A DNA stretch of 64,000 nt from NCBI RefSeq assembly GCF_016901775.1, contig NZ_JACJKW010000013.1, positions 1-64,000 on the forward strand. Reading direction: 5' to 3'. Below, piece by piece: positions 1 to 63,290 of the stretch; the stretch's first letter is position 1, and each line of letters begins with the position of its first letter. A program made the translations under genes and the position numbers. The notes under the pieces were generated by a model, which searched no databases, had not been told where the DNA came from, and was given only the letters and a program-made list of their open reading frames with translations. This stretch comes from Intestinimonas butyriciproducens. GTDB taxonomy: Bacteria; Bacillota; Clostridia; Oscillospirales; Butyricicoccaceae.

Positions 1-90
1 CGCCTTTGGCGCACACTGGCCCCTTGAGAGGTGCAAAAAGCCACGCACAGGTCGCAGCTTTTTGCAGATTGATTAAGATTAAAATCAGAA
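1..90 (+). repeat. Terminator-associated structured repeat, copy A (5' end outside window)
   Basis: This stretch matches the 3' two-thirds of the dispersed element seen at 5246, 20254, 41859 and 62334. It carries the short CGCC/GGCG apical hairpin, a CCCCTTGAG segment, and the hairpin formed by GCAAAAAGCCACG and CGCAGCTTTTTGC around the invariant loop CACAGGT, followed by the conserved GATTGAT. It is most like copy D. The left part lies before base 1, so its flanking gene and terminator cannot be seen. Confidence 0.75.
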
Positions 91-102
91 ACCCGAAGGC
101 AA

Positions 103-483
103 CAAAAAATCCCGCGCTGACAATCAGCCGGACTGCTTCCTTTTTTGCTCTGTCTCGCTCGCCGGGCTGTTTCACCCTGATTCCTTCCGGCGGAGCCGGA
201 GTACCCAGGCCCGCAGCCCAGCAAGCCAGGGAGAGGATGCCTGCGGCGGCTCGCCGCCCGGCCCGGCATCAAAAAAGCCCGTGCTGTTTGCCAGCCGGAC
301 TGCTTCCTTTTTGCTCTGTCTCGCTCGCCGGGCTGTTTCACCCCGGAAAAACTTCCTTTTTCCGGGGACCCCGCAGGATTGATTAGACGGAATACCGGCC
401 CGGCAACAAAAAAGCCCGTGCTGATAGTCAGCCGGACTGCTTCCTTTTTGCTCTGTCTCGCTCGCCGGGCCGGTATTCCGTCC
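103..483. repeat. Three imperfect copies of a ~62-bp non-coding unit
   Basis: A unit starting AAAAAAGCCCGTGCTG, then CAGCCGGACTGCTTCC and ending CTCTGTCTCGCTCGCCGGGC occurs at about 103-167, 271-332 and 405-470. The first copy differs at a few bases. The third copy is bracketed by a perfect 19-bp inverted repeat, GACGGAATACCGGCCCGGC at about 387-405 and its complement at about 464-482. A hairpin with a CCCCGGAAAAA arm lies between copies two and three. The only long reading frame through this stretch has no ribosome binding site or protein-like composition. I regard the region as non-coding repeat debris or a structured intergenic element. Confidence 0.7.
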
Positions 484-20207: not shown

Positions 20208-20252
20208 TCATTACAATCGTCCTTTTTGGCCCCGGGCACTTGGCCCGGGGCC

Positions 20253-20459
20253 TAAGTGTATCGAAAAAGTGTCTGAAGCCACTTTTTCGAGCTTTTGCAA
20301 GGGCCTGCATGCAGCCGATTGGCCGCTTCTGACGGTCAATCGGCCACACTTGCCCCTTGAGAGGTGCAAAAACCGACGCACAGGTCGCCGGTTTTTGCAA
20401 ATTGATGAGAGGTAAAGCAAATCCTTCCCTTTGGCCATATCGTTTTTTCGACAGTCTGT
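20253..20459 (+). repeat. Terminator-associated structured repeat, copy C
   Basis: About 205 nt between two near-identical 27-nt terminator stems (20227-20253 and 20459-20485; 2 differences, both in the loop). The terminal inverted repeat is ATCGAAAAA at the 5' end and TTTTTCGAC at the 3' end. Inside are the hairpin CGAAAAAGTG..CACTTTTTCG, a long apical stem (GCCGATTG at about 20333 complementing CAATCGGC), and the hairpin with arms GCAAAAACCG/CGGTTTTTGC around loop CACAGGT. Co-oriented with the WG/SLH gene upstream. Confidence 0.85.
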
Positions 20460-41823: not shown

Positions 41824-41858
41824 AAAGGACCCAGGTTTCAAAAAACCGAAACCTGGGA

Positions 41859-42039
41859 GAGCGTGTCGAAAAAGTGGCTTAGGCCACTTTAGGGGGTTTT
41901 GCAAGGGGCTGCATGCACGCCTTTGGCGTACACTGGCCCCTTGAGAAGTGCAAAAAGCCACGCACAGGTCGCGGCTTTTTGCGGATTGATAGGGGTAGGG
42001 CGGACGACCCTTTTCATTATATAGGTTTTTCGACAGTCT
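41859..42039 (+). repeat. Terminator-associated structured repeat, copy D
   Basis: A 181-nt element between two 31-nt terminator stems (41828-41858 and 42040-42070), identical except for one loop base. The terminal inverted repeat is TGTCGAAAAA at the left and TTTTTCGACA at the right. Inside are hairpin AAAGTGGC/GCCACTTT, AGGGGC...GCCCCT with a short ACGCC/GGCGT apical hairpin, and hairpin GCAAAAAGCC/GGCTTTTTGC around loop CACAGGT, then GATTGAT. Co-oriented with the 244-residue gene. The upstream stem is followed by GAGCG and has no T-run. Confidence 0.88.
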
Positions 42040-42077
42040 GACCCAGGTTTCGAAAAACCGAAACCTGGGATTTTTTA
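42040..42077. terminator. Terminator downstream of repeat copy D
   Basis: CCCAGGTTTCG/CGAAACCTGGG stem (to 42069) followed by ATTTTTTATTTT. It also lies at the end of the convergent XRE-membrane gene (stop at 42075). Confidence 0.85.
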
Positions 42078-61079: not shown

Positions 61080-61583
61080 ATGCCCGAGCTGCTGGAATGC
61101 GGACGCATCATCAACACCCACGGCGTGCGGGGAGAGGTGAAAATCGATCCCTGGTGCGATTCGCCGGTGCTTTTTGAACAGCTGTCCTGTCTTTATATCG
61201 ATGGTACGGCTTACTCCATCTCTCAGAGCCGTCCCCATAAAAGTTTCGTCTTGTGCAAGCTGGAGGGCATCGATTCCCTGGACCAGGCCATGACGCTGAA
61301 AAATAAAATAGTCTATCTGGACCGGGATCAGGTAGAACTGGAGGAAGGGGCCTATTTCATTGCCGATATCATCGGCTTTTCGGTTTATGACACCCGTACC
61401 CAGCAGATCATCGGCCAGCTGGAAGAAGTACGCCCCTCCCCCGCTTCCGATCTGTACTGCATTGCCACGCCCCGGGGACAGGTGCTCATCCCCGCCGTGC
61501 CCGCCTTTGTCAGTCGGGTGGATTTTGAAAACCGCTGTCTGGAACTGAATACCATTCCGGGGATGCTGCCCGATGAAAATTGA
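61080..61583 (+). CDS. rimM: Ribosome maturation factor RimM
   Basis: A 167-residue 16S-processing factor that binds S19 in pre-30S particles. The RimM domain starts ECGRIINTHGVRGEVKI, and the PRC-barrel half (FIADIIGFSVYD, LIPAVPAFVSRVDFENR) follows. The ATG at 61080 follows TGAGGAG; longer upstream frames run into the terminator hairpin and are rejected. Overlaps trmD by 11 nt. Confidence 0.95.
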   Translation: MPELLECGRIINTHGVRGEVKIDPWCDSPVLFEQLSCLYIDGTAYSISQSRPHKSFVLCKLEGIDSLDQAMTLKNKIVYLDRDQVELEEGAYFIADIIGFSVYDTRTQQIIGQLEEVRPSPASDLYCIATPRGQVLIPAVPAFVSRVDFENRCLELNTIPGMLPDEN

Positions 61584-62307
61584 CATTCTTACTCTGTTTC
61601 CAGGCATGATCGAAGGGGTTTTGGGAGAGAGCATCATCGGCCGGGGCCGGGAATTTGGCCTGATCGATATCAAAGCCCACAACATCCGGGATTACACTCT
61701 GGACAAGCACCGGCGCACCGATGACTATCCCTATGGCGGCGGCATGGGAATGGTGATGCAGTGCGATCCTCTTTACCGGGCCTGGGAAGAGGTGCGGGAG
61801 GGCGAAAAGGTACATACCATCCTGATGTCCCCCCAGGGAGCTCCCTTCTGCCAGGAAAAGGCCAAGGAGCTTTTGGCCCGTGACCGTTTTATTCTGGTTT
61901 GCGGCCATTACGAAGGCATCGACCAGCGTTTCATCGACGAATGTGTGGATGAGGAGATCTCCTTGGGGGATTTTGTTCTCACCGGCGGTGAGATTGCCGC
62001 CGTGGCCATTGCCGATGCGGTGTGCCGCATGGTGCCTGGCGTGCTGGCCGATGACCAGAGTTTTACCGATGAAAGCCATTTCTCCGGTGTGCTGGAATAT
62101 CCCCAGTACACCCGGCCGGAAGAATGGCATGGCCGTCGGGTGCCCGATGTGCTCCTTTCCGGCCATCACAAAAACATTGCTCAGTGGCGCAGGCTCCAGT
62201 CTCTTCTCCGCACCCGGGAGCGGCGGCCCGACCTCTTCCAGAAGCTTCAACTGACCCGGGAGGACCGGAAGCTGCTGGAACAATGGGAAGAGGAAGAAAA
62301 TAGCTAA
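61573..62307 (+). CDS. trmD: tRNA (guanine-N1)-methyltransferase
   Basis: Methylates G37 in tRNAs using SAM, preventing frameshifts. The 244-residue SPOUT enzyme has the N-terminal IDILTLFPGMI, the knotted region CGHYEGIDQRFID and SLGDFVLTGGE, and the C-terminal tRNA-binding domain. Overlaps rimM by 11 nt. It is the last gene of the operon, and its terminator carries repeat copy E. Confidence 0.98.
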   Translation: MKIDILTLFPGMIEGVLGESIIGRGREFGLIDIKAHNIRDYTLDKHRRTDDYPYGGGMGMVMQCDPLYRAWEEVREGEKVHTILMSPQGAPFCQEKAKELLARDRFILVCGHYEGIDQRFIDECVDEEISLGDFVLTGGEIAAVAIADAVCRMVPGVLADDQSFTDESHFSGVLEYPQYTRPEEWHGRRVPDVLLSGHHKNIAQWRRLQSLLRTRERRPDLFQKLQLTREDRKLLEQWEEEENS

Positions 62308-62333
62308 ACAAAAAAGCCGGTTTTCACCGGCTT

Positions 62334-62537
62334 GATCATGTCGAAAAAGTGTCTCAAGCCACTTTTTCGAGTTTTTACAAGGGGCTGCATGCAGCCGATT
62401 GGCCGCTTCCAGCGCTCAATCGGCCACACTGGCCCCTTGATAGGTGCAAAAAGCCACGCACAGGTCGCGGCTTTTTGCAGATTGATAAAGGGTAGGAGAA
62501 ACGGTTCCCCCAGGCAAATAAGTTTCCCTGCAGTCTT
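62334..62537 (+). repeat. Terminator-associated structured repeat, copy E
   Basis: A 204-nt element between two exact 24-nt copies of the trmD terminator stem (62310-62333 and 62538-62561). It starts with ATGTCGAAAAAG and the hairpin CGAAAAAGTG..CACTTTTTCG, then AGGGGC...GCCCCT capped by a long apical stem (GCCGATTG/CAATCGGC), then the hairpin GCAAAAAGCC/GGCTTTTTGC around CACAGGT, then GATTGAT. The 3' terminal repeat has decayed to CCCTGCAGTCT. Co-oriented with trmD. The upstream stem is followed by GATC and has no T-run. Confidence 0.9.
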
Positions 62538-62567
62538 AAAAAAGCCGGTTTTCACCGGCTTTTTTGT
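62538..62567. terminator. Terminator downstream of repeat copy E
   Basis: AGCCGG/CCGGCT stem with a TTTTCA loop and A/T tracts on both sides, reading TTTTTT on the plus strand. It also ends the convergent spoIIA operon (sigF stop at 62568). Confidence 0.85.
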
Positions 62568-63290
62568 TTACCCACCATTTTCCAGGATTTTCTTCACCTT
62601 TGCAATGGCCTTTTTTTCGATACGGGAAACCTGTACCTGGGACACCCCCAGGATCTGGGCCACCTTCTGCTGGGTCAGATCCCGGAAATACCGCAAAGCA
62701 AGCACCGTTTGCTCCCGCTGGGGCAGCAGAGCCATGGCCTCCCGCAGGGCCAGAAGCTCCACCCGGTCCTCTTCCTCATCGGGAGCCGGGCAAACATCCA
62801 TCAGCCGAAAGCCATCCTCTCCCCATTCCGCATTGAGGGACAGGGCGCTTTGGCAGGCTGTCTCTCCGGCGGCGATCTCCTCCGGCGTCAGCCCGGTTTC
62901 CTCTGCGATTTCCGAAAGCCGAGGCTCTCTCCCCAGAACACTTTCCAGCCGGGCCCGGGCCGCCATAACCCGATTCTGGTTCTCCTTCACGCTGCGGCTG
63001 ACCTTCAAAAGGCCGTCGTCCCGGAGAAACCGACGGATCTCCCCTGCAATTTTGGGCACAGCGTATGTAGAAAACTGCGTTGCAAAGGCCGGATCAAAGC
63101 CCTCCACCGCCTTCAGAAGCCCCATACACCCCAGTTGGTACAAATCGTCTTTTTCCACTCCCCGCCCCAGAAACCGGCGGACAATGCTCCACACCAATGG
63201 GCTGTTTTGGATCACCAGCTGTTCCATGGCCTCTTTGTCTCCCTGTTGGGCCTTTTGGATCAGCTCACACCGTTCCTCCTGGGCGGTCAA
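62568..63290 (-). CDS. sigF: RNA polymerase sporulation sigma factor SigF
   Basis: A 240-residue sigma-70 family factor for forespore-specific transcription. Region 2 (DLYQLGCMGLLKAVEGFDPAFATQFSTYA) and region 4 (LTQQKVAQILGVSQVQVSRIEKKA) are clear. The paralogue sigma-G is similar, but the position directly after spoIIAB with a 4-nt overlap identifies it as SigF (spoIIAC). Held inactive by SpoIIAB until SpoIIAA is dephosphorylated. Confidence 0.95.
   Translation of the reverse strand: MTAQEERCELIQKAQQGDKEAMEQLVIQNSPLVWSIVRRFLGRGVEKDDLYQLGCMGLLKAVEGFDPAFATQFSTYAVPKIAGEIRRFLRDDGLLKVSRSVKENQNRVMAARARLESVLGREPRLSEIAEETGLTPEEIAAGETACQSALSLNAEWGEDGFRLMDVCPAPDEEEDRVELLALREAMALLPQREQTVLALRYFRDLTQQKVAQILGVSQVQVSRIEKKAIAKVKKILENGG

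Follow-up and report, generated by a model that had tools for sequence, protein, structure and literature searches.

A short non-coding element inserts at terminator hairpins in Intestinimonas butyriciproducens and related bacteria, with duplication of the whole stem-loop

Downstream of trmD in Intestinimonas butyriciproducens, one terminator-like stem-loop occurs twice, with a stretch of non-coding DNA between the copies. We asked whether a mobile element had inserted at the terminator and duplicated it, and what such an element would have recognized. The DNA analyzed (hereafter the window) is a stretch of 64,000 nt that makes up positions 1 to 64,000 of contig NZ_JACJKW010000013.1. The features of the locus, read from the sequence except where another basis is given, are as follows.

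61573..62307, forward strand: trmD (tRNA m1G methyltransferase; also Pfam PF01746, E 5.2e-60), whose terminator is the target
62310..62333, forward strand: left copy of the duplicated terminator hairpin (AAAAAAGCCGGT-TTTC-ACCGGCTT)
62334..62537, forward strand: mobile element, non-coding, 204 nt (also by search of its own genome)
62538..62561, forward strand: right-hand hairpin copy, with the T-run after it
62568..63290, reverse strand: convergent gene, sigma-factor-like by eye only

The direct repeat at 62310-62333 and 62538-62561 is 24 nt long and has 0 mismatches across the intervening 204 nt, as the original prediction of an exact hairpin duplication after trmD had stated. That prediction also noted GATC after the upstream hairpin. 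The letters are there, but they are the element's own left end and not a replacement of the T's; the left end of the trmD copy reads GATCATGTCG, and the consensus is GAGCGTGTCG. Insertion had further been placed at the junction of stem and T-tract. One joint does lie there, but the two joints flank the whole stem-loop.

Searching the window's own genome (G000; 2.58 Mb in 74 contigs) with the element, as proposed along with the prediction, yielded at least 58 copies. The search for similar DNA gave 40 places besides small overlapping matches, and a left-end pattern added 16; the copy list comprised 57 places after merging, together with L119 and L121 and leaving out the end fragments L117 and L118, and 58 copies were measured (L038 itself left out). 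Locus-specific left and right repeats scoring at least 12 flanked 41 of these 58, and 35 of the 41 were 22-37 nt long. As a control, each of 56 copies was compared with up to 30 mismatched left/right pairs drawn from other copies. The repeat is not a chance product, because in 40 of the 56 it exceeded every mismatched pair; the remaining 16 did not. The repeats differed from locus to locus, and nearly all formed stem-loops preceded by A's and followed by T's, the pattern of bidirectional terminators (means of 4.4 T in the 8 nt after the right hairpin and 4.6 A in the 8 nt before the left; n = 41). Some hairpin pairs have diverged yet kept their pairing (e.g., L029 and L022). When the 17 copies without a repeat in place were read by eye, 13 had the left hairpin only, 1 the right only, and 1 was cut by a contig end; 2 of the 58 had no clear hairpin on either side (L039, and L019 with weak palindromes only), the configuration named beforehand as speaking against the prediction.

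The window itself contains two further complete insertions and part of another.

20227..20253, forward strand: left hairpin copy of the second element, by flank comparison
20254..20458, forward strand: second full element copy (L005), by search of its own genome
20459..20485, forward strand: right hairpin of the second element, sharing 93% identity with its left counterpart, by flank comparison
41828..41858, forward strand: left hairpin copy of the third element, by flank comparison
41859..42040, forward strand: third element copy (L036), whose last base is shared with the repeat, by search of its own genome
42040..42070, forward strand: right hairpin copy of the third element, 97% identical, by flank comparison
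1..93, forward strand: fragment of a fourth copy, truncated where the contig ends; these 93 nt are also the end of contig C14 (L035), where the rest lies

Because this 93-nt overlap is exact, L035 on C14 and L038 at window position 1 are one copy. Read together, the two contig ends give a 22-nt repeat with 20 matches. Window positions 98-480 hold three copies of a 48-76 nt repeat (AAAAAAGCCCGTGCTG...CAGCCGGACTGCTTCCTTTTT...CGCCGGGC) of a different hairpin-rich family, and the cut copy seems to have inserted in one of them.

Sites that are filled in one genome and empty in another provide the most direct evidence. Genome G337, a single contig, belongs to the same family as the window genome and to another genus; G400 is very close to G337 (99% over one 2.1-kb locus). 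Repeats scoring at least 12 surrounded 16 of 20 copies fetched from G337 and 11 of 11 from G400, where the count includes L399 (a 12-nt repeat with no clear hairpin) and L393 (at a contig end). For six G337 sites, the element and the extra hairpin were removed in silico, and the joined flanks were searched in G400. Three of the six are empty there, with uninterrupted matches of 100%, 99%, and 98% and one hairpin each (L374/L401, L383/L402, and L377/L403). Empty sites of exactly this kind had been proposed as support for the prediction, and at 98-100% identity they bear out insertion with duplication of the hairpin. Among the other three, L375 is filled in both genomes, the G400 copy corresponding to L371 lacks its left part and left hairpin, and L372 was matched over its right half only. 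Flank comparison added two insertions common to both genomes (L379/L390 and L385/L398). The single-hairpin empty sites imply that insertion creates the second hairpin, and the sites filled in G337 and empty in G400 imply that some insertions are recent. On these sequence comparisons, we regard insertion with duplication of a complete terminator hairpin as established.

An insertion 3′ of a gene that looks by eye like gdhA is common to G337 and G400; two congeners have a single terminator at that place (L342 and L349), and many have different hairpin-rich sequence there. The trmD neighborhoods of relatives, compared by eye for 11 of 18 loci, lend slight support: a single hairpin follows trmD in five of the 11 (L322 from G001, L328, L330, L331, and L332), but in the other six the next gene comes without a hairpin, and the G001 locus has a different next gene as well. 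Among the loci described here, we met no double hairpin lacking the element, a configuration named beforehand as refuting the prediction. Downstream of a gdhA-like gene (L343-L358), several species of genus g6 carry hairpin-rich sequence resembling decayed relatives of the element.

The duplicated block coincides with the hairpin. Among repeats scoring at least 20, which span 22-43 nt in G000 and 21-42 nt in G337/G400, the median offset of the hairpin center from the repeat midpoint is 0, and the two agree within 1 nt in 21 of 33 repeats in G000 and 17 of 24 in G337/G400. Seven of the 57 are off-center by more than 2.5 nt; five of them are lengthened by matches with element ends or a neighboring repeat (L018, L032, L372, L387, and L400), L393 is truncated, and the seventh is L052. 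Repeat length rises with hairpin length (Spearman 0.56, n = 41); the estimate is noisy, as the hairpin finder frequently extends too far. Loop sequences were compared in 68 pairs (41 from G000, 27 from G337/G400): 44 have the same loop in the same orientation on either side, 3 are inverted, 20 differ, and 1 is uninformative. The duplication is therefore of the ordinary direct kind, and some copies have changed afterwards, at times by inversion of the loop. Loci at which the loop of the left hairpin is inverted relative to the right include L373, L381, L390, and the G400 locus L406. Since the targets are alike in shape rather than in sequence and the duplicated length follows the hairpin, recognition of structure, also part of the original prediction, is strongly supported: the duplicated block varies in sequence and length with its target and stays centered on the hairpin. 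The element thus appears to pick its target by shape.

The element is about 180-250 bp long in G000 and has short terminal inverted repeats of approximately SAGMBTGTCRAAA. Its ends in G000 are GAGCGTGTCGAAAAAG on the left and, as reverse complement, CAGACTGTCGAAAAAC on the right; those in G337/G400 are CAGACTGTCAAAAA and CAGCKTGTCAAAGA. The parts of the trmD copy are as follows.

62339..62349, forward strand: left terminal inverted repeat (TGTCGAAAAAG), from sequence and copy alignment
62341..62370, forward strand: predicted left-end hairpin P1 (TCGAAAAAGTGTC/...CCACTTTTTCGA), with covariation
62378..62439, forward strand: closing stem CAAGGGGC/GCCCCTTG with a variable middle arm, here in its long form, from sequence
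62445..62479, forward strand: predicted hairpin P4 with the conserved internal motif ACGCACAGGTCG, with covariation
62521..62537, forward strand: right end, decayed here (CTGCAGTCTT; consensus TTTTTCGACAGTCTG), from sequence and copy alignment

The interior of G000 copies thus consists of the left-end hairpin, the closing stem, whose arm differs from copy to copy, and the hairpin bearing ACGCACAGGTCG; in relatives the motif of the P4 hairpin differs from that in G000 (e.g., CGACGCACATGTCGC). In an alignment of 32 of the 58 copies, 11 of 34 pairs change on both sides, compared with 3.5 in shuffles and 0-2 with slid partners. Pairing is kept in 97.9% of cells, a percentage that is favored more than the double changes because the structure was derived from the same alignment. 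No Rfam family reached its gathering score in the window copy (best 35.4 bits, with 79 required), and among 20 loci of relatives only tRNA and 6S neighbors did so. No gene was recognized inside any copy. Individual copies depart from this plan: the right end of L032 (G000 contig C74) resembles a left end (AGCGTGTCGAAAAA inverted), possibly marking a recombinant element, and L041 and L055 are variants, 254 and 244 nt long, in which the middle arm is greatly extended.

At a probability of roughly 70%, we favor a non-autonomous, MITE-like DNA element that is moved in trans, targets terminator hairpins, and has the whole stem-loop duplicated by gap filling. The trans-acting enzyme would link each end of the element to one strand of the target, at opposite feet of the terminator stem-loop (presumably the 5′ feet), while the target is probably extruded as a cruciform or single-stranded hairpin. 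Gap filling would then copy the whole stem-loop on both sides, so that the duplication would be as long as the hairpin. The enzyme may be a DDE-type transposase, and by analogy an IS1182-type transposase acting in trans is our leading guess; the fold may be needed for mobility. In a bolder version, which we consider rather unlikely, the conserved fold (RNA or single-stranded DNA) would actively assist an integrase that reads structure, serving as its cofactor. Any terminator hairpin would then be a target, the duplicated target would be a secondary structure rather than a fixed number of base pairs, and the element would represent a new class of non-autonomous element.

The RNA-like fold and its covariation would also suit a retroelement, a reverse transcriptase inserting folded RNA beside terminators in group IIC-like fashion and staggered second-strand cutting producing the duplication; terminators are indeed the insertion sites of group IIC introns in the accessible part of PMC4424553. 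Such an origin is nevertheless improbable: profile search found no RVT_1 match in G000, with its 58 copies, or in G344 and G015, the element stays below the gathering score of every Rfam family, group II introns included, and terminal inverted repeats fit DNA transposition better. We also know of no hairpin duplication by group IIC introns. A folded core and a hairpin target could equally recall the RNA-guided IS110/IS1111-like (DEDD) elements, the core being analogous to their bridge or seek RNA and a resolvase-like enzyme cutting the cruciform. Profile search for PF01548 found none in G337 and G400, whose insertions differ, or in G000, G344, G199, and G338, among others, and the targets have no common sequence; a long duplication is, to our knowledge, not expected of these elements. 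This reading is very improbable and largely refuted, although it would regain force if every carrier had a divergent DEDD enzyme. RAYT-like genes in G337, G400, and G015 (L422 1560-2045, L423, and L426; the two tested fall below the cutoff of NCBIfam NF047646) draw attention to a single-strand HUH (Y1/RAYT-like) transposase, and profile search placed Y1 in G337 and G400 and as contig-end fragments in G000. Against such an enzyme, which we judge as doubtful as a reverse transcriptase, PF01797 was unmatched in six carriers (G228, G403, G407, G199, G144, and G374) at E ≤ 1e-5, a threshold that could miss divergent members, no element lies beside the RAYT-like genes examined, and we know of no HUH insertion that makes such a duplication. 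The G337 RAYT-like gene contains GTAGGGCGGGGTG-type palindromes.

CRISPR spacer acquisition duplicates a repeat whole, and by analogy a Cas1-like integrase might duplicate a palindromic one here. CRISPR integrases make duplications of near-fixed length, whereas the length here varies with the hairpin, and we give this idea extremely little weight. The least credible account dispenses with insertion and regards the element as a host regulatory RNA whose flanking hairpins are kept alike by gene conversion or selection. Copies without repeats that seem to lie beside the same genes in different records (L150/L155; L134/L217/L280) are in its favor, but the three single-hairpin empty sites refute it as a general account. 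Profile searches for reverse transcriptase, IS110, and Y1 extended over 28, 30, and 30 genomes, carriers and non-carriers, and none of the three fits. No transposase appeared among the neighbors either, where 963 ORFs were clustered and the heads of the 45 largest clusters were, by eye, ordinary-looking genes. The left-end pattern matches opened in G000, G001, and G015 were short elements, fragments, and chance matches, with no autonomous transposon having the same ends.

The favored reading, a MITE-like element with a trans-acting enzyme, has partial precedents. The accessible parts of PMC4923244 and PMC5678879 describe IS1272/TnSha1 (IS1182 family; ~1.9 kb, with its own transposase) as inserting in inverted repeats or terminator hairpins regardless of sequence, replacing or partly deleting the stem-loop, and making no target duplication. 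Targeting of structure, which the original prediction suggested, is thus not wholly without precedent, although IS1272 deletes its target. The present element shares with IS1272 a hairpin target without sequence preference, a target size that follows the hairpin, and terminal inverted repeats; it differs in being non-coding and in duplicating the whole stem-loop that IS1272, as described there, deletes or replaces. Its outcome corresponds to "pathway b," which Wan et al. 2017 (PMC5678879, in the part available) drew beside the IS1272 model as an attack at the 5′ feet of a cruciform that duplicates the stem-loop, and not as the behavior of IS1272 itself. Group IIC introns are similar in inserting at intrinsic terminators and in their structured RNA, and dissimilar in using a reverse transcriptase and a ribozyme (PMC4424553, accessible text), the element having no group II match. 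ISPsy8, ISPa11, ISPpu9/10, and ISRm22, found in REP palindromes, likewise have palindromic targets; the available portion of PMC1525189 has them target one sequence family, insert within the palindrome, and make duplications of 0-6 bp that are fixed for each IS. The IS1202 group resembles the element in its unusually long duplications (16-28 bp), whose targets are not identified in the accessible part of PMC10132070; unlike the element, it encodes a TnsB-related transposase and has ends that begin with TGT, and hairpin targeting is not described in that part.

The closest kind is a MITE-like element with structure-dependent target choice. Like the bacterial MITEs described in the available text of PMC10969869, the element is short, non-coding, and intergenic, with terminal inverted repeats and target site duplications; unlike them, its duplication is a hairpin of variable length, its fold is common to several genera, and its parent IS was not found. 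Such conservation of the interior between genera is unusual for an ordinary MITE. Neither the element family nor an observed whole-hairpin duplication is described in the open-access literature searched (subscription papers and ISfinder lay outside). Within that literature, the new points are duplication of whole hairpins accompanied by empty sites, an interior that covaries, and a wide distribution.

A covariance model built from the G000 copies was used to score the top 8 candidates in each genome; it matched 39 of the order's 394 genomes (its own included, and some resting on weak E-values) and 18 of 169 genera. The fold is well conserved between genera. Ten carriers examined more fully had 2 to 17 places per genome, counts that include some weak matches produced by overlaps or as echoes on the opposite strand. 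Named carriers of the motif among the matches listed include Flavonifractor, Pseudoflavonifractor, Oscillibacter, and other Oscillospiraceae (at least 120 stretches matched). For 82 matches in 80 of these stretches, 63 lay far enough from the locus end to measure, in search windows that are short for longer elements, and 21 of the 63 had a repeat scoring at least 13; at least two of the 21 (L208 and L250) look like chance and not hairpins. At L150 and L155, from two genomes, a folded element of related type occupies what seems to be the same site, between genes that by eye resemble infB and rbfA; it shows no evident hairpin repeats and may be an old copy or a domesticated one. The records of L134, L217, and L280 have neighboring genes in common beside the element, which suggests an old shared insertion or a kept function. 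Plasmid and phage collections gave a partial match in Vescimonas fastidiosa pMM35_01 (L432) and one unannotated phage record; the L432 match is flanked by a DUF1667 gene and by a gene for a glycerol-3-phosphate responsive antiterminator. In two IMG/VR contigs, viral by database label (L430 and L431), the element model matched at three places (E 2.6e-10 to 1.3e-12).

These insertions supply natural evidence, with empty sites, for the duplication of a whole stem-loop that had been drawn as one model pathway (PMC5678879) and is unreported for IS1272 in the accessible part of that source. Each insertion is marked by its hairpin duplication, and the near-identical G337 and G400 carry different insertions, so it should be possible to find the enzyme. 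A shape-reading integrase could be developed into a tool that adds DNA at the ends of genes while leaving genes unbroken. For the bacteria themselves, the finding reveals an element family with no Rfam match that is spread through one order of gut-type bacteria, the Oscillospiraceae among them.
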